Shown here piece after piece: positions 6,595 through 54,357 of a stretch of 54,357 nucleotides of DNA. The position numbers and the translations under genes were made by a program. The stretch spans positions 1 to 54,357 of the forward strand of contig NZ_JASJOC010000018.1 of the NCBI RefSeq assembly GCF_030068615.1. The letters run 5' to 3'. The notes below the pieces were generated by a model. That model saw nothing but the letters and a program-made list of their open reading frames with translations. It was not told the DNA's origin and made no database searches. How positions within the stretch are numbered: position 1 is the stretch's first letter; each line of letters begins with the position of its first letter. The DNA is from Halostagnicola sp. A-GB9-2. Lineage in GTDB: Archaea; Halobacteriota; Halobacteria; Halobacteriales; Natrialbaceae.

Positions 6595-7332
6595 ATGGCA
6601 CAGACTGCGATTCAACTCTATTCGCTTCGCGAACTCGAGGAACCGCTTCCCGACGTACTGAACGAAATCGACGAGACGTCGTTCGACGGCGTCGAGTTTG
6701 CACATCGGATCCGTGACGCGGACGGAACGGAAGTTGCTCGAGCCCTCGAACGGACAGGACTCACTCCGGCTTCGGCCCACGTCGACCTCGAGTCCCTGGA
6801 GGACGATGTCTCGTCGACGGTCGAGTTCTACGACCGCCTCGGATGTGACACGTTCGTCGTCCCGTATCTCGACGAGTCCCACTTCGAGTCGCTCGAGGCA
6901 GTCGAATCGACGGCGAACCGGCTGTCAGCCGTCGCGAGCGACCTCGCGGAGCGCGGAGTCGACCTTCACTATCATAACCACGAACACGAGTTCGTCCCCT
7001 GTGGCGAACGGACTGCGATGGTCGAACTGCTCGAGCGAACAGGCGACGTCGTCGGGTTCGAACTCGATCTGGGCTGGGCGAACGTGGGCGGCGTCGATCC
7101 GGTTGCGTTCCTCGAGCGATACGAGGAACGGATCTCGCTCGTTCACCTCGCGGACGCCGAGACTGATTCGGGTTCGCCGACGGAACTCGGCGAAGGCGAC
7201 CTCGATCTCGAGGGGTGTTTCGAGGCCGTTGAGCGCGCGAACGTCGAGTGGTGCATTTACGAACACGATCGGCCGACTGATCCACGTCGATCGCTCTCCC
7301 ACGGCGCTGAGACGCTCGATCGGCTTCGTTGA
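6595..7332 (+). CDS. Sugar phosphate isomerase/epimerase-type TIM barrel protein
   Basis: 245 residues, xylose-isomerase-like TIM barrel (AP endonuclease family 2 fold). It begins MAQTAIQLYSLRE. Predicted metal/substrate residues lie in DGVEFAH (about 38), YHNHEHEF (about 124), FELDLGWANVGGVDP (about 153), SLVHLAD (about 180) and CIYEHDRP (about 220). The family includes isomerases, epimerases and keto-sugar lyases acting on free or phosphorylated sugars and on inositols; the substrate is unknown. It is the first of four closely spaced plus-strand genes, with 68 bases to the next. A Tat-exported homologue with the same motifs is at 51677-52669. An upstream in-frame ATG at 6445 exists, but the family's usual N-terminus begins at 6595. 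Confidence 0.88.
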   Translation: MAQTAIQLYSLRELEEPLPDVLNEIDETSFDGVEFAHRIRDADGTEVARALERTGLTPASAHVDLESLEDDVSSTVEFYDRLGCDTFVVPYLDESHFESLEAVESTANRLSAVASDLAERGVDLHYHNHEHEFVPCGERTAMVELLERTGDVVGFELDLGWANVGGVDPVAFLERYEERISLVHLADAETDSGSPTELGEGDLDLEGCFEAVERANVEWCIYEHDRPTDPRRSLSHGAETLDRLR

Positions 7333-14902: not shown

Positions 14903-14933
14903 CATTAGAAACATTTATGTGCGTTGCCATACC

Positions 14934-16670
14934 ATGACAATCAGTATGGGTGAAGACCATATCGACAGGGATTACTGTGAGCTAGTATCACGCCGTAGCT
15001 TCATAGCAGCGACAGGTGTTGCCGGTTCCGCCGCGCTTGCGGGCTGTTATGGAAGTGGGGATGACGGTAACTGGTTCAATACTGCACAGGTCGAACACGA
15101 GGTCGGCCAGTACCAGTACAATCCACATGAATGGGGCGGCTTTACGCACGCTTCGTTCGGCCTCTTCGATGAATACGCCCAGTATCTCGTCGGGGAAGAC
15201 GAGTTCTACCCGCACTTCGTCGAGGAGTGGGAGACCGACGAAGGAGAAATGACGTTACACTTGCGCGACGACTACACGTGGGGCAACGGTGACGATATTA
15301 CGGCGGATGACATCGTTATGCAACTCGAGATCGGCGAAGCGCTGGACTCGAACCTCTGGGAGTTCGCGGACGACGTCGAGGCGACGGACGACCACACCGT
15401 CGTCATCTCCTACTCGGAGGGGACGAACACAGATATCATCGAACACACCGTGCTCAACGAAAGCCTCGACCATCCCCCAGCCGATTGGGTGGAGATCCAC
15501 GAGGCGATTCAAAACGGTGATGACGTCGATATCTTCGGGCACGAGATCGAAGAACCCACGCCCTCGGGCCCGATCGAGTTATCGAACACGACCGATTCCT
15601 ACCACGAGTACACGATTCGAGACGACCATCCGCTCGCGGACAACTACGATTGGGAGGGGTACCGGATGGAATACCGATCCGAAAACCAGGCGGCACACCA
15701 GTCCTTCCAACAGCAGGACCTCGACGGGATCCACAGTCTCTTCGCGGATCCCGAAATCATGGACACGTTCCCCGATAGTCTGGAGGAGATTCAGATCCCG
15801 GGCGGGTTCGGATTCGGCGTCGCTTTCAACTACGACGACGAGCACTACGGCGATCGGGAGGTCCGGCAGGCGTTCATGCATGCGCTCGACCGCGATCTCG
15901 TCATCGAAAACATCGGGGAGTCGACCAGCATCAAACACGACGCGCCGACCGGGTTGACGGCGGTCGCAAACGACGAGTGGTTCGGCGATCCGACGGATCA
16001 GTACGAGCCGTACGAACACGATCTCGATCGGGTCGAAGAGCTCCTCGAGAGCGCGGGCTACGAACGGAACGGCGACGATATTTGGGAGCGCGACGGCGAG
16101 GTTCTCGAGGCCAATATCATCGTCGCCTCGAGCTGGAGCGACTGGGTGACGATGGCGAGTACCTGCGCCGATCAGCTGTCTCAGGCCGGTTTCGACTCCT
16201 CGGCGGACACTCGCGGCGAAGGTGCCTGGTACGAACTGATGGCTGACGGCGATTTTCAGGTTACGGCCTACGGCCATACGCAGGGCGGGGATCCGGCGAT
16301 GAACCATCCGTTCTTTGCGCTCCGGTGGAAGCTCCTCAACCGGGAACACGACAGCGACTCCTCGTTTTATAACTACCCCGAGGAGGTAACCGTGCCCGAG
16401 ATGGACGGCGACGGAGAAATGACCGTCGACTTCAACGAGGAGTTCGAAGCGCTTGCGGCGACCAACGACGAAGCGGAGATGCAGGAGATCGTCGAACGAC
16501 TCGCGTGGGTCGTCAATCAGGATGTCCCGTTGGCGATTATTCAGGAAAAGTACGAGCAAACGTTCATCGACAGAGAGATGTGGGATATTCCGGACGAATC
16601 GGAGCACTTCCAGAGCTACTGGCCGCTCTGGTGGCTCCCGAAAGTGGACGATATGAGTGCTGCACAATGA
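14934..16670 (+). CDS. ABC transporter substrate-binding lipoprotein (SBP family 5, dipeptide/oligosaccharide type)
   Basis: 578 residues. Tat signal and lipobox: SRRSFIAATGVAGSAALAGC, with the Cys at about residue 39 as lipid anchor, so the protein is exported folded and held on the outer face. The mature part is the large two-lobe family 5 solute-binding fold (EVGQYQYNPHEWGGF, then YTWGNGDDITADDIVMQLE, then YDDEHYGDREVRQAFMHALD). Family 5 binds peptides, but in hyperthermophiles and haloarchaea it also serves cello- and other oligosaccharides; the downstream GH3 gene favours a glycoside here. Start: ATG 14934 or 14946, both giving an intact signal; the frame opens at GTG 14919. First gene of a five-gene operon. 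Confidence 0.9.
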   Translation: MTISMGEDHIDRDYCELVSRRSFIAATGVAGSAALAGCYGSGDDGNWFNTAQVEHEVGQYQYNPHEWGGFTHASFGLFDEYAQYLVGEDEFYPHFVEEWETDEGEMTLHLRDDYTWGNGDDITADDIVMQLEIGEALDSNLWEFADDVEATDDHTVVISYSEGTNTDIIEHTVLNESLDHPPADWVEIHEAIQNGDDVDIFGHEIEEPTPSGPIELSNTTDSYHEYTIRDDHPLADNYDWEGYRMEYRSENQAAHQSFQQQDLDGIHSLFADPEIMDTFPDSLEEIQIPGGFGFGVAFNYDDEHYGDREVRQAFMHALDRDLVIENIGESTSIKHDAPTGLTAVANDEWFGDPTDQYEPYEHDLDRVEELLESAGYERNGDDIWERDGEVLEANIIVASSWSDWVTMASTCADQLSQAGFDSSADTRGEGAWYELMADGDFQVTAYGHTQGGDPAMNHPFFALRWKLLNREHDSDSSFYNYPEEVTVPEMDGDGEMTVDFNEEFEALAATNDEAEMQEIVERLAWVVNQDVPLAIIQEKYEQTFIDREMWDIPDESEHFQSYWPLWWLPKVDDMSAAQ

Positions 16671-16698
16671 AAACGGATCGTACGACCGCGTTCACGCT

Positions 16699-17709
16699 AT
16701 GAATTGGGTGCTCAAACGGACCGGACAGTCGGTGTTTACCGTCTGGGCCGTCGCGACGATCTCGTTCGGCCTGATTCGACTGATGCCCGGCGGAGCGGAG
16801 GATATCATCGTCGCGCGAATCCACGAAAGCCAGGGCTCGGACGTTCCAGCGGAAGTGATCAGAGAACAGGTACAGCACCGGATCAACATCGATCCGAACG
16901 CGCCGATTCACGAGGCCTACCTGCAGTACATGGGCGGGCTCGTTCGCGGGGATTTCGGCCATTCGGTGTATCTAAACAGGGACGTCGCCACGATTCTGGC
17001 GGAGGCGCTCCCGTGGACGATATTCCTCATGGCGATCAGCACGCTACTCACCTTCGGGCTGGCGCTCTCGCTTGGGGCGATGATGGCCTACAAAGAAGGA
17101 ACCAGGTTCGACATCTCTCAGACCGGGGTCGCGATACTGACGACGTCGATCCCGTACTACGTCGCCGCCGTGTTGTTCATCGCGTACCTCGGAAACAGGA
17201 CGTCGATCTTCCCCGCTCGAGGACGATACCCTGCGGTCGTCGAACCCGGATTTACCATCCAGTTCATCGTCGGTTCCTTTCACCACGCGATTCTCCCTGC
17301 GGCGTCCTTCGTACTGACAGTGTACGGCCTGACCGCCCTCGCGATGCGTGGCAACAGTATCCAGATACTCGGGGAAGACTACGTACGCGTCGCGCGCCTC
17401 CGTGGCCTCTCCGACAGGCGAATCGCCCTGCGGTACGTCGGTCGCAACGCCGTGCTTCCGATGTACACGAGTCTCCTCATTTCGATCGGGTTCATGTTCG
17501 GCGGTTCGATCATTCTCGAGGAACTCTTCCAGTACCCCGGTATCGGCTACTACATGTACCAGGCCATCGAGTACCAGGATATGCCCCTGATGATGGGGAC
17601 GTTCCTGGTCATCACGGTGGCTGTCGTCATCGCCTTGTTCGTCGGTGATGCGACCTACAGCAAACTGGATCCGCGGATCAAATCGGGTGATGACAGTGAG
17701 TCCTACTGA
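16699..17709 (+). CDS. ABC transporter permease (DppB/OppB family)
   Basis: 336 residues, starting MNWVLKRTGQSVF. First helix at about 10-29, then an external loop (30-105) as in all DppB-type permeases, then five more helices. The EAA loop that contacts the ATPase is seen as RVARLRGLSDRRIALRYVG at about 230. It pairs with the next permease to form the membrane channel. The start at 16699 lies 28 bases after the binding-protein stop; its stop overlaps the next start by 20 bases, which indicates cotranslation. Confidence 0.92.
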   Translation: MNWVLKRTGQSVFTVWAVATISFGLIRLMPGGAEDIIVARIHESQGSDVPAEVIREQVQHRINIDPNAPIHEAYLQYMGGLVRGDFGHSVYLNRDVATILAEALPWTIFLMAISTLLTFGLALSLGAMMAYKEGTRFDISQTGVAILTTSIPYYVAAVLFIAYLGNRTSIFPARGRYPAVVEPGFTIQFIVGSFHHAILPAASFVLTVYGLTALAMRGNSIQILGEDYVRVARLRGLSDRRIALRYVGRNAVLPMYTSLLISIGFMFGGSIILEELFQYPGIGYYMYQAIEYQDMPLMMGTFLVITVAVVIALFVGDATYSKLDPRIKSGDDSESY

Positions 17710-18760
17710 GGGGGATCGAGAGCCCCAGACGGACGGTGGCGAGATGTTCGCCACCGCCGAACTCACCCAGATCAGTCGACGCCAACGGTACGGTGAGTGG
17801 TTTCAGGAGGCGGTTCGAGAACCGTTTTCGATCGCCTGGGAAGACTGGCGGATGAAAGTTGGGCTGACGATCATTCTCGGGTTCATCGCCATGGCTGCTC
17901 TCGCCTGGGTTTCGTCCTCGACGTTCTGGGTTCTCGAGAACGTGACGATCCTCGAGGAACCGATCTCGAATCAGGGGCCACAGTCCCTGCAACCGTTCGA
18001 GAGCTCGGACCACCTGCTCGGCACGGACAATCAGGGTCGTGACATCCTCGCCGGAGTCGTCCACGCGACGCCGATGATGTTACAGATGATCCTCGCGGGT
18101 GCCGTGTTCGCGACCGTGATGGCGACTGCGGTCGGAACCGTTGCAGGGTATAAAGGCGGGACGACCGAACGAATCCTCATGACGATCAGCGACGTGGCCA
18201 TGACGATTCCCGGACTGCCGCTGGTGATCGTCCTGGTCGTGCTGATCAATCCGCAGAACCCCTGGTTCATCGGAATCATCATCACGATCAACGTCTGGGC
18301 CGGAATCGCGCGAACGATTCACTCGCAGGTGTTGACGCTCCGCGAGCACTCCTACGTCGAAGCCTCCCGAACGATGGGGATCAGTACGCCGAGGGTGATA
18401 CAGAAAGACATCCTGCCGAATCTGATGCCGTACATCACCGTCAACTTCGTCTACTCGGCTCGTCGGGTCATCTACGACAGCGTCGCGCTGTACTTTCTGG
18501 GCATCCTCTCGTTCCAGACCGTCGAAAACTGGGGCGTGATGATGAACCTCGCCTACCAGACGGCGGGAGCGCTGTACAACCCGGCGACGACGTACATGCT
18601 GATCATCCCGATGATACCGATTATCGTGCTTTCGTTCGGCCTGATCCTGTTCGCACAGGGGACGGACCGCCTGTTCAATCCGCGCGTTCGGACGCGCCAG
18701 AGCGGACGAACCGAACCGACAGAAGACGCCGACGACGACACGCCACGAGTTCCACAATGA
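17690..18760 (+). CDS. ABC transporter permease (DppC/OppC family)
   Basis: 356 residues. A soluble N-terminal tail of about 50 residues precedes the first helix (LTIILGFIAMAALAWV, about 64-80). The DppC hallmark HLLGTDNQGRDILAGVVHATPM (start of the core domain) lies at about 107, followed by five helices and the EAA loop EASRTMGISTPRVIQKDIL at about 223. The C-terminus is an acidic tail. ATG 17690 is inside the preceding gene; ATGA overlap with the following ATPase at 18757. Confidence 0.92.
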   Translation: MTVSPTEGDREPQTDGGEMFATAELTQISRRQRYGEWFQEAVREPFSIAWEDWRMKVGLTIILGFIAMAALAWVSSSTFWVLENVTILEEPISNQGPQSLQPFESSDHLLGTDNQGRDILAGVVHATPMMLQMILAGAVFATVMATAVGTVAGYKGGTTERILMTISDVAMTIPGLPLVIVLVVLINPQNPWFIGIIITINVWAGIARTIHSQVLTLREHSYVEASRTMGISTPRVIQKDILPNLMPYITVNFVYSARRVIYDSVALYFLGILSFQTVENWGVMMNLAYQTAGALYNPATTYMLIIPMIPIIVLSFGLILFAQGTDRLFNPRVRTRQSGRTEPTEDADDDTPRVPQ

Positions 18761-19938
18761 GTACGTACGAACGATCACAACACGATCGAGCACTGTACGA
18801 GACGGCCGACCCGGTCATCGAGCTCCGGGACGCGGAGGTCGTCTTCGAGATGGACCGCGGAGTCTCCCGCGTTCTCGACAACGTCACCCTCGACATCCAG
18901 CGAAACGAGGTGCTCGGGATCGTCGGCGAGAGCGGGAGCGGCAAATCCATGCTCGCGTCCGCGATGTTAGACGCCGTCGTTGACCCCGGCGTTCTGTCGG
19001 GTCAGGTAACGTACCACCCGGCGGACGGCCACCCCGTCGACGTGCTCGAGCTCAGCGAACGGGAACTACTCAAACACCGCTGGGAGGACATTTCGATGGT
19101 GTTCCAGGGAGCGATGAGTTCGTTCAACCCGACGATGGAGGTCGGCGAGCACTTCGAGGAAACGATCGAGGCTCACGACTACGATATCGGAGCCGGAATG
19201 GACCGCGCTCGAGAACTGCTCGAGGATCTGTACCTCGATCCGGATCGCGTCCTCCCATCGTATCCCCACGAACTCAGCGGCGGGATGAAACAGCGGGCGC
19301 TCATCGCGCTCTCGCTGGTGTTGGAACCGGACGTCCTTGTCATGGACGAGCCGACAGCCGCCCTCGACCTGCTGATGCAACGATCGATCCTCTCGTTGCT
19401 CGAATCGCTCAAAGAAAAGTACGACCTGACGCTGATCTTCATCACGCACGACCTCCCCCTGGTCGCGGAACTGGCGGATCGACTCGCCGTGATGTACGCG
19501 TTCGAACTCGTCGAAATCGGGGCTACGGAGGAAATCCTCCGGCGCGGTTCCCACCCCTACACGCGGTCGCTGTTGAACGCGACGCCGAACCTCGACGCTC
19601 CGCTTGAGGAGATGCGCCCGATCGAGGGGGCGGCACCCGACCCGGTCGACGTGCCGTCGGGCTGTTCGTACCACCCCCGGTGTCCGCTCGCGGACGACGA
19701 GTGTGTCGCCTCGGACCCTGCGTTTCAGGCCGTTTCCGACGAACACAGTGTTGCCTGCTATCACTGGCAGGACGCTCCGGACGCGATTCCGTTTAACGTG
19801 GAGGTGGAGGTGGCAGAAGATTGCCCACAGACCGATAAGGAGGGTGAGTGCCTGCCAGACGAGAGAACGGCGGACTCGAGCGAACCCGAACCCCAGCAAG
19901 CAGAGAATCGTGCGGAAACGGACGGTGGTGACCAATGA
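18757..19938 (+). CDS. ABC transporter ATPase (DppD/OppD family)
   Basis: 393 residues. Walker A GESGSGKS at about 53, Q-loop MVFQGAMSSFNPTM at about 113, signature LSGGMKQRALIALSL at about 172, Walker B LVMDEPTAALD at about 193, switch His in FITHDLPL at about 230. After the ATPase core comes the oligopeptide-transporter C-terminal domain with three Cys (CSYHPRCPLADDECV), typical of this family. A 45-residue acidic tail (about 350-393) is an extra not usual in bacterial DppD. It forms a heterodimer with the next gene product and energises import. Start overlaps the permease stop (ATGA). Confidence 0.93.
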   Translation: MSTYERSQHDRALYETADPVIELRDAEVVFEMDRGVSRVLDNVTLDIQRNEVLGIVGESGSGKSMLASAMLDAVVDPGVLSGQVTYHPADGHPVDVLELSERELLKHRWEDISMVFQGAMSSFNPTMEVGEHFEETIEAHDYDIGAGMDRARELLEDLYLDPDRVLPSYPHELSGGMKQRALIALSLVLEPDVLVMDEPTAALDLLMQRSILSLLESLKEKYDLTLIFITHDLPLVAELADRLAVMYAFELVEIGATEEILRRGSHPYTRSLLNATPNLDAPLEEMRPIEGAAPDPVDVPSGCSYHPRCPLADDECVASDPAFQAVSDEHSVACYHWQDAPDAIPFNVEVEVAEDCPQTDKEGECLPDERTADSSEPEPQQAENRAETDGGDQ

Positions 19939-21026
19939 GCGGGAGCGATCAACACCTCGTCTCGCTCGAGGGCGTCGAAGTCCACTTTGAGGAGAGCACT
20001 GGCTTACTCGATTTCGGCGATCCGGATGTCGTCCGGGCCGTCGACGGTGTCAGCCTCGATATCGAGCAAAACGACGTGGTGGCACTCGTCGGCGAGTCCG
20101 GGTGTGGGAAAACGACCCTCGGCAAAACCGCAATCGGTCTCCAGCGGCCGACCGGTGGGAGCGTCCGTTATCGCGGCCAGGACATCTGGGACGCGAAAGA
20201 CGGGCGCGGCGACGTCGAGATTTCCTACACCGATATACGGCGCTCGCTCCAGATCATCCATCAGGATCCGGGGAGTTCGCTCAATCCCAATCGGCGCGTG
20301 CTGAAGATTCTCGAGGCACCGTTAAAGCGGTGGCAGGCGGGGATGAGCGCGGGAGATCGACGGCGGGAAGTCCTGTCGATGCTCGAGCGCGTCGGCATGA
20401 CGCCGGCCAAAGACTACGCCGGACGATATCAACATCAGCTCTCCGGCGGGGAAAAACAGCGCGTTGCACTCGTCAGGGCGCTGTTGATGGATCCGGACCT
20501 CATCCTCGCGGACGAGGCGATCAGCGCGCTCGACGTCTCGTTGCGCGTCGAGATGATGGACCTCATGCTCGAGTTGCAGGATCAGTTCGACACCTCCTTC
20601 GTCGCCGTCTCCCACGACCTCTCGAACGCGCGGTACTTCGCCGCCCACGGTGGGGGTCGAATCGGCGTTATGTACCTCGGCCAGCTCGTCGAAATCGGAC
20701 CGGCCGAAGAGATAATCTCCAATCCGAAACACCCCTACACGAAGGTCCTTAGATGGGCCACGCCCGACCTCCGTGCGGGAACCGACTCGAGCGAGCCGCC
20801 GGTTCGACGGATCGATATTCCGGATCCGAAGAATCCGCCGTCGGGCTGTCGGTTTCATACGCGCTGTCCGGAGGCTCGCGAGTGGTGTCCGCGCGAACAA
20901 CCGGAGCCGATCGACGTCGACACAGACCACGAGGTCGCCTGCTTCCGCGAAGACGAGGACCACGAGTACTGGTCGAGTCCAGCACTCGAGGACGAACAAG
21001 CCGCCGGGTCAGCGCGGTCGGACTGA
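19935..21026 (+). CDS. ABC transporter ATPase (DppF/OppF family)
   Basis: 363 residues. Walker A GESGCGKT at about 53, Q-loop IIHQDPGSSLNPNR at about 110, signature LSGGEKQRVALVRALL at about 168, Walker B LILADEAISALDVS at about 188. The usual Pro after the catalytic Glu (DEP) is Ala here; the Glu itself is kept, so ATPase activity is expected. Switch His is in AVSHDLSN. The C-terminal Cys-containing extension (CRFHTRCPEAREWC) matches DppF. It ends the transporter operon; GH3 begins 105 bases later. Confidence 0.93.
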   Translation: MSGSDQHLVSLEGVEVHFEESTGLLDFGDPDVVRAVDGVSLDIEQNDVVALVGESGCGKTTLGKTAIGLQRPTGGSVRYRGQDIWDAKDGRGDVEISYTDIRRSLQIIHQDPGSSLNPNRRVLKILEAPLKRWQAGMSAGDRRREVLSMLERVGMTPAKDYAGRYQHQLSGGEKQRVALVRALLMDPDLILADEAISALDVSLRVEMMDLMLELQDQFDTSFVAVSHDLSNARYFAAHGGGRIGVMYLGQLVEIGPAEEIISNPKHPYTKVLRWATPDLRAGTDSSEPPVRRIDIPDPKNPPSGCRFHTRCPEAREWCPREQPEPIDVDTDHEVACFREDEDHEYWSSPALEDEQAAGSARSD

Positions 21027-21131
21027 TCGATAGCGATCGGAATTGATCGGTGTTGCTCGAAGCGATTCCGGCGAAGGTCGGCGGTTGTTCGTCCGTCGAA
21101 TTTATGTGACTTGCAATCAATTACCAATCGT

Positions 21132-23333
21132 ATGACTCAGCAGGTTAGCCCCGCGTCGAGAGACATCAGTATACAGGAATTGATCGACGAGTTGTCCCTT
21201 CCGCAAAAAGTCGGACAGCTCGTCGGAACGTACGTCGGATCGATGGACCAAGATATCACCCTCGAGAACGCACGGGAGATGGTTATTGACTCCCACGTCG
21301 GAACGGTCGCCGCGTTCGGAATCGGCGTTTCGAACCATCACGACCCGGTCCGCGTGGCCGAGATGGCGAACGAACTCCAGCGGACCGCACTCGAGGAGAC
21401 TGAACACGGCATTCCGCTCTTGCTCCCCGTCGACGCCGTTCACGGCCACGCGTACGTAAACGGTGCGACGATATTCCCCCACGGACTCGGCGTCGCTGCG
21501 ACGCGAAACACCGACCACGCATTCAGCGCAGGGGCGATTACGGCGACCGAGATGCGAGCCACCGGCGCGAACGTCAACTACGGACCCACCTGCGACGTTG
21601 CCAGGGACCCGCGCTGGGGCCGAACGTTCGAAACGTACGGAGAGAGCCCGCTCCTGTGTGGCGCGTTCGCCGGGGCGACCGTTCGGGGCCTCGAGTCCGC
21701 TGAAGACGGGCCTCGAGTTGCCGCGACGGTAAAACACTTCCCGGCCTACGGCGACCCGGAAGCCGGCGAGGACGCCGCCGTCGTTGATCGGTCGCCAACC
21801 ACTGTCCACCAGCAGTTGCTCCCTCCGTTTCGGGAAGCGATCAACGCCGGCGGCTCGCTCGTAATGCCGTGTTACAACTCGATTGACGGCGAACCGGCCC
21901 ACGGCTCGCGGCGGTACCTGACCGAACTTCTCCGGGAGCGACTCGGCTTTGACGGAGCCGTGGTCTCCGACTGGGGCGGCGTGGACATGCTCCACGAGGA
22001 TCACCGCGTTACCGCGTCACAACGCGATTCGGCGAGAACGGCTCTCGAGGCCGGCCTGGATCAGATTTCGATCGGACGACGGGCGTACGCCGACCACCTC
22101 GTGTCTCTCGTCGACGACGGCGAACTTTCGGAGGGACGGATCGACGAGGCGGTTCGACGGCTCCTCGAACTGAAACGGAATCTCGATCTCTTCGAAAACC
22201 CCTACGTCGACATTAACCGAGAGACGTCGGTTCTGGGGGCGGACAACCATCGAGAACGGGCGTATCAGGCCGCACTCGAGTCACAAACGCTGTTGAAAAA
22301 CGAGGAGGATTTCCTCCCGTTGTCGCCGGACCTCGACTCGATTCTGGTCGCGGGGCCGAACGCGGATTCGCTTCGAAATCAGTACGGCGGTTGGAGCGTC
22401 CAACAGCCCGAACCCGATTCCGGCGTGACCGTTCGAGAGGGAATCGAACGGGCCGTCGGACCCGACGCGACGGTTCGATACGAACAGGGCGCGACGACGA
22501 CCGAAGTAGTCGATCTCGAGGCCGCGTCCAGCAGTGCGGCAGAGTCGGACGTCGCCGTGCTCGCTCTCGGGGAGAACTGGTATTTCCACGAATTCGGCCC
22601 GCAGGAACTCGTCGGCACCACCGGCGAGAATCCGACCCGTTCGCAACTCGAGTTACCGTCCGCACAACGGGAGTTGCTCGAAGCGGTTTGGAAAACCGGG
22701 ACGCCAACCGTTCTGGTGTTGATTACTGGGCGTCCGCTTTCGATCCCCTGGGCGGACGAACACGTTCCCGCGATCGTCCAATCCTACTATCCGGGAAGCG
22801 AAGGTGGGCGCGCCGTTTCCGACGTACTATTCGGGAAACGCAACCCGTCCGGTCGGTTGCCGATCAGCGTGCCTCGCTCGACGGGTCACCTACCGACGCG
22901 GTTCAACCACCTCGCGCATCCGACCCCGATCGGGAGCGACGAACACCCCGAAACCTACGACCCGCTTTACGAGTTCGGTCACGGGGAAAGTTACACGGAG
23001 TTCGCCTGTGAGAATCTCGAGGTCGGGAGCGAGGAAATCGGCTCCGCAGAGTCGGTAACCGCCCAAATCACCGTCGAGAACGTCGGCGACCGGGCGGGAA
23101 CACGAGCGCTCGATTTCTTCCTTCGGGACCGCGTGAGTTCACGGGTGAGGCCCGTCAGGGAACACGTCGGCTTTACGACGGTCGATCTCGAGCCTGGCGC
23201 GGCGGCGACGGCGGGAATCACCGTCCCAAACGATTCGCTCGCCGTACCCGACTCGAGGGGTCGAAAGACTGTCGAATCAGGCACGTTCGAGGTTTCGTGT
23301 GCCGGAGAAACGACGTCGTTCGACGTTCGATGA
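21132..23333 (+). CDS. GH3 family beta-glycosidase, intracellular
   Basis: 733 residues. Three-part GH3 architecture: N-terminal TIM barrel, alpha/beta sandwich (from about 390), and a C-terminal fibronectin-III-like domain (after FGHGESYTEFACENLEV, about 620). The catalytic nucleophile is the Asp of VVSDWGGVDML at about residue 280; substrate-binding ATVKHFPAYGDPEAGED is at about 200. It hydrolyses terminal non-reducing beta-linked sugars, most often beta-glucosides or beta-xylosides. No Sec or Tat signal is visible, so it should act inside the cell on material brought in by the upstream importer. ATG 21132 is preferred to the TTG at 21111. Confidence 0.92.
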   Translation: MTQQVSPASRDISIQELIDELSLPQKVGQLVGTYVGSMDQDITLENAREMVIDSHVGTVAAFGIGVSNHHDPVRVAEMANELQRTALEETEHGIPLLLPVDAVHGHAYVNGATIFPHGLGVAATRNTDHAFSAGAITATEMRATGANVNYGPTCDVARDPRWGRTFETYGESPLLCGAFAGATVRGLESAEDGPRVAATVKHFPAYGDPEAGEDAAVVDRSPTTVHQQLLPPFREAINAGGSLVMPCYNSIDGEPAHGSRRYLTELLRERLGFDGAVVSDWGGVDMLHEDHRVTASQRDSARTALEAGLDQISIGRRAYADHLVSLVDDGELSEGRIDEAVRRLLELKRNLDLFENPYVDINRETSVLGADNHRERAYQAALESQTLLKNEEDFLPLSPDLDSILVAGPNADSLRNQYGGWSVQQPEPDSGVTVREGIERAVGPDATVRYEQGATTTEVVDLEAASSSAAESDVAVLALGENWYFHEFGPQELVGTTGENPTRSQLELPSAQRELLEAVWKTGTPTVLVLITGRPLSIPWADEHVPAIVQSYYPGSEGGRAVSDVLFGKRNPSGRLPISVPRSTGHLPTRFNHLAHPTPIGSDEHPETYDPLYEFGHGESYTEFACENLEVGSEEIGSAESVTAQITVENVGDRAGTRALDFFLRDRVSSRVRPVREHVGFTTVDLEPGAAATAGITVPNDSLAVPDSRGRKTVESGTFEVSCAGETTSFDVR

Positions 23334-49832: not shown

Positions 49833-51000
49833 CGTCAGTCTCGAAGTCAGCGGCGGAGATCAACCCGGTCGCGAGGAAGTACGGTTCGTGCCTACTACCG
49901 CCGGCACTGACTCATTACCGATTCACATACTAGGTCAGGTTCGATGGTCGTTCGTCCCCCCACGTCTCGAGACCCGGTTTCGGCGGACTGTTCGTTTATA
50001 TCGAGATTCGACGTACACCGACGCAGTTTGCTTCGCGGTCTCGGGATCGATAGAGCGCGACTGTGGCCTCTTTAACGCACGCTTGGCGAGCACCTAGACG
50101 GCACAAAACGGATCGATCACGTCGGAGGTCGCACCGAGATCAGCTTCATCGGTTTGGCCCGTCGGTAACATCGCAGGCGACGATCACGGGATCTATTCGG
50201 TGCTGATCAGCGTATCGTGGCAAATTTATTATGGTGCACATCTCTATTTTAGTACACAATCCGCCGCTTGTTCGGTTGAAGACGGATTCCAAAGTTGTGT
50301 GGTGTAGTAGTGACAGGTTTGAGCAATTTAGATAGCGGTACTGGGTGACCGTCCATCGCAAATTGTGAAAGCGGCCGACTTGAATTTCGAAGCGCGAACA
50401 GTGTCCAGTTTCGCCCGTTACAGTCCTATTAAACCCTCTATTTTGACGAACTCTCCGGATAGATACCGTACACTCCGGTGAAAAACACGAGACGGCATAC
50501 TGCCCTACCGATAGAAACGGATTTACAGGTTCGAAGTCAGATTCCCGTTAGCTGGAGACTCTGTCATCGAGAATCAACGTTGGCGAGATATGTTGTGATA
50601 AGAACACGATTTCTTCGAACCACTCTCGAATCTCGATGGCGGCACATAACAGCTTTGTTACCTTCGGATTAGAGAGATCCTGATGTATCACACAGGAGGA
50701 GTGCTCTCGTAAGCGTCAGTTAGTCCGAATATTAATTTCTATTTAAATAACAAATGAGTCATAAATACTACCAAAATGTTGATCTATGAAACGTTCGGTC
50801 ACATTCTGACGATATTCGAACGGTTCACTCACGTCCTCTTCCCCAGCGAAACCGTGGTTCGATAGAAGTCGGTTCACCTCCCATCGAACAACGTTTTGGG
50901 AAACACTGTTAGTCGGAGTGTGAATTCATTTTTTCCTAACGTACCGGAAGAGCCGATGGACGCAGTATATTTAAGACAATCGCTATTCAAAGACTGTACA
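49833..51000. other. 1.2-kb intergenic region, mostly without coding signal
   Basis: Positions 50200-50900 are AT-rich. No domain is recognised in the longer frames (50146-50361, 50478-50672). One short minus-strand frame (50743-50877, listed separately) has haloarchaeal composition. The UspA promoter, GTATATTTAAG near 50966-50976, sits 25-35 bases from ATG 51001. Length and AT content suggest decayed DNA. Confidence 0.55.
50743..50877 (-). pseudogene. Possible gene remnant or 44-residue protein
   Basis: A frame from GTG 50877 reads VNRLLSNHGFAGEEDVSEPF and ends DQHFGSIYDSFVI. The composition is acidic and aromatic as in real haloarchaeal C-termini, but there is no ATG and a stop lies just upstream, so it may be the 3' remnant of a lost gene. 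No family recognised. Confidence 0.3.
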
Positions 51001-51477
51001 ATGATTGAGACAGTCATGCTCGCGATCGGACCTGACGACGGCGATCGAATCGATAAACTTGCTGCGCAAGCGATTGATTTGGCTCAACCTGCAGACGCAA
51101 CGGTTATTCTGGGACATGTCCTCTCCCAGAACACGCTCGAAGAGGAGCGACAACAGTACAACGAGGCGATTGATCAGGTTGGCCAGGATGTCAGGAAAGA
51201 GGATATAACACCAGAACGGCTGGCAAAAGATACGGATCCAGTCAGGAAAGCAATCGATCAGTTAGAAGCAACGGCAGTCGAATTCGAGATTCGCGCTGGG
51301 GCCGGTGACAAAGCGGAAGAACTCAGTCGAATAGCCGAGGCCAACAACGTCGATAACCTAATTATCGGTGGTCAAAAACGTTCGCCAGCAGGGAAAGCGA
51401 TGTTTGGGAGTACGACACAACGACTGCTACTCAACGCGCCATGTCCGGTAACGTACGTTCGCGACCGAGACGAATAA
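51001..51477 (+). CDS. Universal stress protein (UspA family)
   Basis: 158 residues. Rossmann-like Usp fold starting MIETVMLAIGPDDGD. The ATP-binding motif is intact near the C-terminus: IIGGQKRSPAGKAMFGSTTQ, followed by LLLNAPCPVTYV. Usp proteins bind ATP and act in stress tolerance; no partner is visible here. A TATA-like TATATTTAA lies about 30 bases upstream, giving a leaderless message; ATG 51001 is chosen over the longer frame from 50896 for that reason. Confidence 0.93.
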   Translation: MIETVMLAIGPDDGDRIDKLAAQAIDLAQPADATVILGHVLSQNTLEEERQQYNEAIDQVGQDVRKEDITPERLAKDTDPVRKAIDQLEATAVEFEIRAGAGDKAEELSRIAEANNVDNLIIGGQKRSPAGKAMFGSTTQRLLLNAPCPVTYVRDRDE

Positions 51478-51676: not shown

Positions 51677-52669
51677 CTATAACTTCGCAGGGTGCTCTTC
51701 GGCGCCCTCGATACCGCAAACCCCACCGGGCGAGTACGGGTGATTCAGTTTAGACATCCACTCTGCGCCGATTTTGATTGACTCGAGTGGGTTGGGTGCC
51801 TGATCGTACTCGTAGACCAGGTAATCGACATCCGCAGCGTTTCGAGCAGCGGTCGCAACGGCTCGCATATTGACGTGGCCCTCGTCAACTTCCACGAAGT
51901 CACCGCTCGCAGTCATGTTCTTCATGTGTATCGACTGAACGTTATCGCTGTACTCGATCACGTAGTCGATCGGATCTTCGCCGCCGACGAGAACCCAGCC
52001 AGCGTCGAGCTGGAGGTGAACGTTGTCATTGATGTTCTCGGCGAAAATATCGTACGCGGTGGTATCTCCGATTTGCTGAAACTCGTGATCGTGGTTGTGA
52101 TAGCCGAACTCGAGCCCTTCGTCGGCGACGCGGTCTGCCATCTCGTTGCATCGTTCGGCGAATTCGATAACGGAGTCTTCGTCGCTCCATGTCCCGTCGG
52201 CTACCATCGGTTCAACGAGTGCGGGACTACCGAACTGCGAGTAGGTCTCTATCGTCCCGTCGAAGTCCTCTTCGAGTTCCTCGAGGCCGACGTGAGCGCT
52301 CCCCATGTGGACGTCCGTCTCGTCGAGCGCATCGGCGATTTCGTCCGCATCGTCGATCATGAACGGTTCGACGGCATCGTATCCAGCGTCAGCGCATTCT
52401 CGGATCAGCTCTGCGGTCGAAAGGTCCGCTTCGGTAAACGACCAAAATTGAGCCGATGTTTCGATTGCTTCCGATGACTGAGCTGCGGGGGTAGATCCAT
52501 ACGCACTGGTTCGGGCTCGCGTCGACTGAGCTGCCTGTGCTGTCCCGATGGCAGCGCTGCCGACACCGATCGCACCGATACCCTGCAGGACGCGTCGGCG
52601 GTTCGCATTGTAACCTGATTCAGTAGATGTCCGTTCGTTCTCCCGGTCTGTCTGTGTTGAGTCGCTCAT
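51677..52669 (-). CDS. Tat-exported sugar isomerase/epimerase-like TIM barrel protein
   Basis: 330 residues. A polar N-terminus is followed by a Tat signal: NRRRVLQGIGAIGVGSAAIG, then TAQAAQ as likely cleavage site, with no lipobox Cys, so the mature protein is released or loosely held outside. The rest is a xylose-isomerase-like TIM barrel with metal-site segments YHNHDHEF, LQLDAGWVLVGGEDP, SIHMKNM and YEYDQAP, matching the cytosolic homologue at 6595-7332. Being exported, it is unlikely to act on phosphorylated sugars; a glycoside or keto-sugar substrate is more plausible. ATG 52669 is chosen for the complete signal. Confidence 0.88.
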   Translation of the reverse strand: MSDSTQTDRENERTSTESGYNANRRRVLQGIGAIGVGSAAIGTAQAAQSTRARTSAYGSTPAAQSSEAIETSAQFWSFTEADLSTAELIRECADAGYDAVEPFMIDDADEIADALDETDVHMGSAHVGLEELEEDFDGTIETYSQFGSPALVEPMVADGTWSDEDSVIEFAERCNEMADRVADEGLEFGYHNHDHEFQQIGDTTAYDIFAENINDNVHLQLDAGWVLVGGEDPIDYVIEYSDNVQSIHMKNMTASGDFVEVDEGHVNMRAVATAARNAADVDYLVYEYDQAPNPLESIKIGAEWMSKLNHPYSPGGVCGIEGAEEHPAKL

Positions 52670-53268: not shown

Positions 53269-53423
53269 AGTACCATACACTCGCGGAGCCCGCATATATC
53301 TATCTCCCGTAGTCGTTCTACCCCACGTTCTATCCGGCCGAGTTCGGAAACTGATCGGGAAGTGTCGGTGTCCCACCCGATCAGAACACACCTTTAATGT
53401 ACGTTCAATACTACTGGTTGGAT

Positions 53424-54230
53424 ATGTCGATTCCGATAATTGACCCGCACATGCATATGGTTTCGCGGTCGATCAACGATTACGAACGCGCCCGACTGGC
53501 CGGCATCGAGTGTTGTATCGAGCCGGCGTTCTGGAGCGGAACGGACAAACAACACGCCGAATCGTTCTTTGATTATTTTGAACGTCTTATCGGCTTCGAA
53601 ACCAACCGCGCCGAGCGCGCCGCCGGTATCGACCACTACGCCACCATCGGCCTCGAGCCGAAGGAAGCGAACTACCCGGAGATGGCCCAGCGAGTCCTCG
53701 ATGAGCTTCCGGAATACCTCGAGCGCGAGGATGTCGTCGGCCTGGGTGAAATTGGCTTCGACCAGGGGACCGACGAGGAAGAATACGCCTTCAGAGAGCA
53801 ACTCCGGATGGCCGAAGAACGCGAACTCCCGGTTATCGTTCATACGCCGCACACGAACAAACCCGAAGGAACCGAACGACTTGTCGAGATCATCCGAGAC
53901 GAAGGCGTCACGCAGGACCGGATCATCCTCGATCACAACACCGAAAACACCATCGACATCTCGGCCCAGACCGACTGTTGGATCGGCTTTACCCTCTACC
54001 CCGGGAAGATCACCGACGAAACTGCGATCGATATCCTCGAGGAATACGGCACCGACAAGATGTTGCTCAACAGCGCAGCCGACTGGGATCCGTCCGATCC
54101 CCTCGCCGTGCCCAAAGCCAGAGACAAAATGCTCGATCGCGGCTGGGACCGCGAGGCGGTCAAGAAGGTCGTCTTCGACAACCCCTACGAGTTTTTCGAC
54201 CAGTCGCCGAACTTCACCTACGAGGCCTAA
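53424..54230 (+). CDS. TatD-family metal-dependent hydrolase (EboB-like)
   Basis: 268 residues. Metal ligands: HxH in IIDPHMHMVSRS, Glu in VVGLGEIGFDQGT, His in VIVHTPHTNKPEG, His in IILDHNTENT and Asp in NSAADWDPSD. The opening MHMVSRSINDYERARLAGI and the DHNTENT segment look like EboB of the ebo clusters rather than TatD nucleases. The following gene, four bases on, is a TIM-barrel protein, as in ebo-type neighbourhoods. Activity unknown. ATG 53424. Confidence 0.85.
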   Translation: MSIPIIDPHMHMVSRSINDYERARLAGIECCIEPAFWSGTDKQHAESFFDYFERLIGFETNRAERAAGIDHYATIGLEPKEANYPEMAQRVLDELPEYLEREDVVGLGEIGFDQGTDEEEYAFREQLRMAEERELPVIVHTPHTNKPEGTERLVEIIRDEGVTQDRIILDHNTENTIDISAQTDCWIGFTLYPGKITDETAIDILEEYGTDKMLLNSAADWDPSDPLAVPKARDKMLDRGWDREAVKKVVFDNPYEFFDQSPNFTYEA

Positions 54231-54233
54231 TCC

Positions 54234-54357
54234 ATGGACTTTGGCTTCTCACTAAACGCCTTCCGGCAGTACGAGTTGGACGAATCGATCGAAATCCTCG
54301 CCGATATCGGCTACGACGGGATCGAAATCCTGCTCGACGAACCGCACCTGTTCCCGC
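54234..54357 (+). CDS. Sugar isomerase-type TIM barrel protein, truncated at the window edge
   Basis: Only the first 41 codons are visible: MDFGFSLNAFRQYELDESIE followed by ILADIGYDGIEILLDEPHLF, the first strand and helix of a xylose-isomerase-like TIM barrel. Three bases separate it from the TatD-like stop, so they share a transcript. The rest lies outside the window. Confidence 0.8.
   Translation, partial: MDFGFSLNAFRQYELDESIEILADIGYDGIEILLDEPHLFP

Follow-up and report, generated by a model that had tools for sequence, protein, structure and literature searches.

Identification of a putative exported 3-keto-glycoside lyase

The gene at 51677-52669 of the window (the whole stretch of 54,357 nucleotides that was analysed, from Halostagnicola sp. 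A-GB9-2) probably encodes an extracellular, metal-dependent 3-keto-glycoside 1,2-lyase (beta-eliminase), predicted from its sequence to be exported by the Tat pathway and to act in a secreted oxidative pathway of glycoside degradation; the metal of this lyase is probably Mn2+. The observations on which the pathway is based are the active-site residues, the signal, the fusions and the gene neighbourhood. The open reading frame, Tat signal and TIM barrel of the preliminary description, which did not give the strand, were borne out on the minus strand (330 aa; PF01261, E 3e-15), the plus strand being interrupted by stops (Table 1). The protein consists of a polar N-terminus of 22 residues, the Tat signal, a loose linker and the PF01261 barrel, and its AlphaFold2 model has a pLDDT of at least 90 across 236 residues.

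Table 1. Coordinates of features in the window and of related ebo-like loci
Feature	Position	Strand	Basis
Predicted Tat substrate with xylose-isomerase-like TIM barrel; proposed to be an extracellular 3-keto-glycoside 1,2-lyase	51677..52669	-	330 aa; translation, PF01261, top matches AtOGE, AL1 and BT1
Tat signal, residues 23-46, NRRRVLQGIGAIGVGSAAIGTAQA	52532..52603	-	Sequence; motif common to 22/22 listed clade members
TIM barrel, residues 66-313	51731..52474	-	AlphaFold2 model, mean pLDDT mostly >90; Z 25-27 to 3-keto-glucoside lyases
H191 (metal), N192, H193 (catalytic base), equivalent to AtOGE His132-Asn133-His134	52091..52099	-	Alignment; roles from PMC10628242
D222, metal ligand (AtOGE Asp163)	52004..52006	-	Alignment
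H248, metal ligand (AtOGE His189)	51926..51928	-	Alignment
E287, metal ligand (AtOGE Glu233)	51809..51811	-	Alignment
Cytosolic homologue, 245 aa, no signal	6595..7332	+	Ligands H127, D158, H184, E223 and base H129 kept (alignment to AtOGE)
Universal stress protein, convergent neighbour	50896..51477	+	PF00582, E 3e-20; similar protein beside exported barrel in G234 (L148:3363-3845)
TatD-family hydrolase (EboB-like)	53397..54230	+	PF01026, E 7e-18; homologues share exported-barrel clusters in L005, L153, L155
Start of EboE-like TIM-barrel gene, cut by contig end	54234..54357	+	MDFGFSLNAFRQYELDESIEILADIGYDGIEILLDEPHLFP
Loci of the ebo-like set	window 53397-54357; L142:14599-18789, L143:1149-2090; L153:2283-8894; L155:9175-15476; L005:8906-12926		

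Signal and predicted export

The Tat signal is made up of NRRRVLQG, GIGAIGVGSAAIG and TAQA, in which AQA marks the end of the signal, so that the RRxxL motif, the uncharged hydrophobic stretch and the A-x-A site of a Tat substrate are all present. The RRxxL motif and the hydrophobic segment occur in all 22 listed members of the exported clade, one of which (L100:8374-9570) carries a lipobox; L117, which is related, lacks a signal when translated from the start codon that was read. The short, generic NCBIfam Tat model TIGR01409 scored 11.3 bits, under its cut-off of 16.7, yet the motif is found in every listed clade member, and the Tat claim is thus lowered and not cancelled. In-frame ATG, GTG or TTG codons are located at or before residue 1 and then only from residue 104, within the barrel, with none in between, so any such start that gives an intact barrel also carries the signal. 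Export of the barrel by Tat therefore appears to be a clade-wide property, as predicted from these sequences.

These features bear on the reading of the protein as an ordinary cytosolic sugar phosphate isomerase with an unused signal, the name given to its relatives by automatic annotation. That reading is extremely unlikely and was rejected on the clade-wide Tat motif and its lipobox variant, the start codons, the partners with secreted domains described below and the profile scores, in which the sugar-phosphate epimerase UlaE reaches only 25 bits.

Relationship to 3-keto-glucoside lyases

In a sequence search of the PDB, the top matches of the exported protein were 8tct (BT1) and 8bvk (AtOGE), and a profile of the family scored AtOGE highest (200 bits), followed by AL1 (171), 8tcs (171), BT1 (164) and two unassigned Parabacteroides structures before dropping to IolE (73), the hydratase AtHYD (36) and UlaE. 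Regarding structure, the model matched the solved 3-keto-glucoside lyases with Z scores of 25-27 at 2.0-2.5 Å, with AL1 at Z 26.8, BT1 at Z 25.8 and AtOGE at Z 25.4 and 2.0 Å; the functional names of AL1 and BT1 rest on PDB titles, and the unassigned structures 3obe and 3l23 are also among the best fold matches. The identity to AtOGE of only about 24% counts against the lyase reading. No curated sugar-phosphate isomerase/epimerase model in NCBIfam matched the exported protein at E 1.

The nearest characterised enzymes are thus 3-keto-glucoside beta-eliminases (1,2-lyases), which supports the suggestion of the preliminary description that the sugar-phosphate name is probably wrong for the exported copy; it is very likely wrong there. 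That description voiced its doubt for this copy, and the doubt is extended here: the predicted structure of the cytosolic homologue matches the same set of lyase structures equally well, so both copies are lyase-like, neither can safely be called a 'sugar phosphate isomerase', and the cytosolic homologue is probably misnamed too.

Active site and its cytosolic counterpart

AtOGE is a Mn2+ enzyme catalysing the beta-elimination of 3-keto-O-beta-glucosides, with His132, Asp163, His189 and Glu233 as metal ligands and His134 as base (PMC10628242). Mapping by alignment showed that the four ligands and the base are all kept in the exported protein, and Y190, H191, N192, H193, E196, F197, D222, H248, G264 and E287 are invariant columns across 78 relatives. 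The cytosolic homologue starts at the first barrel strand and shares 33% identity with the exported copy over 244 aa (E 2e-41). The metal sites of the two were compared by alignment and through their shared PDB matches: the segments of the preliminary description recur as YHNHDHEF and LDAGWVLVGGEDP in the exported protein and as YHNHEHEF and LDLGWANVGGVDP in the homologue, both proteins having the four ligands and the base. Loss of ligands from the exported copy, which that description had regarded as speaking against its proposal, is therefore not the case. Residue 220 is Gln in the exported protein and Glu (Glu161) in AtOGE; Gln220 was rejected as a mark unique to the archaeal exported clade, since Gln also occurs in BT1 and some actinobacterial forms, and Glu is found in two of the exported archaeal proteins (L154, L155).

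A non-catalytic sugar-binding domain derived from an enzyme is highly unlikely for the window protein, in which all catalytic residues are kept, although degenerate members of the clade do exist: in the exported barrel L148:3879-4844 the catalytic His is replaced by Tyr (YHNYNHEF), so not every clade member need be a lyase, and in L100:9883-13746 neither the catalytic base nor most of the metal ligands remain in the C-terminal barrel. L100:9883-13746 is an exported protein of 1287 aa that also contains three malectin domains and a laminin-G domain, and its degenerate barrel is perhaps a binding domain. The L148 barrel also adjoins a universal stress protein, as at the window locus.

Fusions and gene neighbourhood

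In the same genome, contig C2 encodes a 636-aa paralogue composed of a Tat signal, the barrel and a 3-keto-disaccharide hydrolase domain (PF06439, E 2e-26). Fusions of this kind were confirmed with Pfam in four genomes (G000, G372, G317 and G277), the last three having two PF06439 stretches each, and in G234 barrel and PF06439 matches lie within one 802-aa frame. One such fusion (L160:18001-20298, Natronococcus sp. CG52) is publicly annotated as 'family 16 glycoside hydrolase', which looks like a wrong name.

Secreted proteins near the exported barrels contain GSDH, cupredoxin, malectin, ThuA and multicopper oxidase domains. Within 6 kb on either side of 15 exported and 40 cytosolic haloarchaeal loci, with kinship ignored, GSDH was found at 9 vs. 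0 loci, cupredoxin at 10 vs. 0, any oxidation marker at 10 vs. 1 and 3KDH at 5 vs. 0, a scan that missed divergent hydrolase domains such as that in L144. Likewise ignoring kinship, PF06439 was above cut-off in 10 of the 13 clade-carrying genomes, which span several families, and in 8 of 379 others. In Halocatena salina a TatD gene, two isomerase-like genes, UbiA, the exported barrel, a Bmp importer and a PQQ dehydrogenase are collinear, the last three separated by short gaps.

The fused hydrolase and the dehydrogenase genes of the Halostagnicola genome are on contig C2 and not on the window contig, which counts against the pathway proposed below. Contig C2 further encodes a Bmp-type ABC importer (PF02608), a cytosolic barrel (L142:10399-11367) matching the hydratase AtHYD (8ro4, E 6e-12) and a Gfo/Idh protein whose best NCBIfam match is levoglucosan dehydrogenase (320 bits, below the cut-off of 650). 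A GMC-type C3 dehydrogenase was rejected as the partner, both GMC proteins found in the genome (contig C6) being without signal. In a search bearing on PQQ synthesis, neither PqqC nor the control gave a match, so the absence of PqqC carries no weight. Within the window, the region 14919-23333 looks like an ABC transporter locus, with a putative solute-binding protein of Tat type and genes resembling those of a permease and an ATPase, and then encodes a glycoside hydrolase of family GH3 (PF00933, E 1e-72); exported barrels in L148 likewise have a GH3 gene nearby.

An exported hydratase, epimerase or isomerase whose substrate is the free 3-keto-sugar or 2-hydroxy-3-keto-glycal left by the fused hydrolase would suit the fusions as a subsequent step, and AtHYD shares the fold (fold-match rank 21), but its profile score is 36 bits as against 200 for AtOGE and this genome encodes a separate, cytosolic AtHYD-like protein; this reading is considered unlikely.

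The ebo-like genes and the contig end

An ebo-like set (TatD, UbiA, one or two EboE-like barrels and a PF01663 phosphodiesterase; compared with the ebo genes of PMC5133447) recurs together with a myo-inositol-1-phosphate synthase-like (MIPS-like) gene beside the exported barrel and GSDH. The window is the entire contig C10 and ends within an EboE-like gene after TatD; the right end of C2 (L143) has UbiA followed by an unassigned gene, EboE-like, MIPS, phosphodiesterase and GSDH genes, and in L155 the order EboE_b-UbiA-EboE_a-TatD occurs in one piece. No exact overlap was found between the C10 and C2 ends, and from the gene order of L155 the two contigs are probably adjacent, the assembly being interrupted within the EboE-like gene. 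A second MIPS-like gene in this genome (C12:438672-439820; L139-L141) matches in three separate pieces and is apparently broken, with a TatD gene adjoining and GSDH genes a few kb off; the region is possibly a decayed second copy of the cluster.

The MIPS-like gene was detected in 11 of the 13 clade-carrying genomes and in 44 of 379 others (kinship ignored), a linkage that, with the ebo-like genes, would fit an IolE-like dehydratase acting on extracellular keto-inositol. The top NCBIfam model of the exported protein is indeed IolE (TIGR04379), but its 49 bits are far under the cut-off of 290, for which an IolE identity was rejected, and IolE structures stand far beneath the lyases in the profile search; the dehydratase is very unlikely.

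Distribution of the exported clade

A search of the kind suggested in the preliminary description found members with a Tat signal in other haloarchaea, in about 13 of 392 genomes of the order with a patchy occurrence across several families, and their neighbours include oxidation and 3-keto-hydrolase genes. Among plasmid records, the gene is on large plasmids in each of the named carriers, which are Natronococcus sp. CG52, Haladaptatus pallidirubidus and Halocatena salina. A quick LG+G4 tree built from 103 proteins places the Tat-bearing proteins of haloarchaea in one group (SH-aLRT 82 at its widest extent, with internal values of 96-99), separate from the cytosolic haloarchaeal group containing the homologue in the window. 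Actinobacterial Tat forms are placed elsewhere in this tree, which suggests separate gains of export in haloarchaea and actinobacteria. Examples come from Amycolatopsis, Kibdelosporangium and others (L047-L082); they keep the metal site intact and bear Tat signals of their own.

Proposed pathway and comparison with known systems

Action on extracellular keto-sugars or glycosides, which the preliminary description had considered possible, is supported by the conserved active site and by the secreted domains that are fused to the clade or encoded near it (3-keto-disaccharide hydrolase, ThuA and sugar dehydrogenase). The lyase would fold in the cytoplasm, leave via Tat and act outside the cell. 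Sugar oxidation would take place there through a quinoprotein-type sugar dehydrogenase, cupredoxin and multicopper oxidase, and the putative oxidised glycoside would then be cleaved by the lyase, alongside ThuA and 3-keto-disaccharide hydrolase domains. If the reaction resembles that of AtOGE, the metal coordinated by H191, D222, H248 and E287 would polarise the ketone at C3 of the oxidised beta-glycoside and H193 would take the C2 proton, the C1 group leaving to give a 2-hydroxy-3-keto-glycal. Products may be imported by the Bmp-type ABC transporter, and the cytosolic AtHYD-like and Gfo/Idh proteins may hydrate and then reduce them. Characterised GSDH enzymes oxidise aldoses at C1, which counts against this pathway.

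More tentatively, some haloarchaea may possess, often on large plasmids, a self-contained extracellular machine for oxidising and cutting glycosides. Its multidomain exported proteins would combine lyase, 3-keto-disaccharide hydrolase, ThuA and carbohydrate-binding domains with quinoprotein dehydrogenase and cupredoxin, electrons would be passed to copper proteins, and an ebo-like gene set (isoprenoid/cyclitol) would accompany them; a literature search for the pathway in haloarchaea found no paper with the terms used. Oxidise-then-eliminate cleavage of glycosides has been characterised only recently, and in bacteria. If the proposal is true, archaea perform such cleavage extracellularly, using multidomain proteins in which quinoprotein and copper centres carry the electrons, a misleading database name would be corrected, salt-stable lyases that cut glycosides unlike ordinary glycosidases would become known and the archaeal ebo-like cluster would gain an initial functional context.

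Compared with known systems, AtOGE of Agrobacterium tumefaciens (8bvk; PMC10628242) is similar in fold (the match extends over 211 residues), in its four ligands and in the His-Asn-His motif, and differs in residue 220 and sequence identity, as given above, and in its 259-residue chain without the long N-terminal signal region. AL1 (Alistipes, 8tcd/8tcr) and BT1 (B. thetaiotaomicron, 8tct) are the highest-scoring functionally named folds (Z 25.8-26.8) but are bacterial and only 21-26% identical to the exported protein; a 3-keto-hydrolase fusion or GSDH/cupredoxin partners were not seen for them in this analysis. Plasmids of Xanthomonas sacchari and Paracoccus liaowanqingii (L156, L157) carry AtOGE homologues with signal-peptide-like N-termini adjoining DUF1080 3-keto-hydrolase and TIM-barrel genes, with a GMC-type dehydrogenase and small subunit as partner whereas the haloarchaeal partners are GSDH and cupredoxin; exported bacterial parallels thus probably exist, judging by these signal-like starts beside DUF1080 and GMC genes. 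Their gene set resembles the periplasmic 3'-ketolactose route, the LacABC/DUF1080 pathway of Caulobacter, in which C3 oxidation and cleavage take place outside the cytoplasm with a PF06439 hydrolase (PMC9007349). The haloarchaeal proposal shares with that route the cutting of a C3-oxidised glycoside outside the cytoplasm and the PF06439 hydrolase, and differs from it in the dehydrogenase and in the lyase-hydrolase fusion, none being described in PMC9007349. The Agrobacterium route of oxidation, elimination, hydration and reduction resembles the gene set of contig C2, and the haloarchaeal proposal would move its first two steps outside the cell, in a form distinct from the known bacterial ones in being archaeal, Tat-exported and multidomain.
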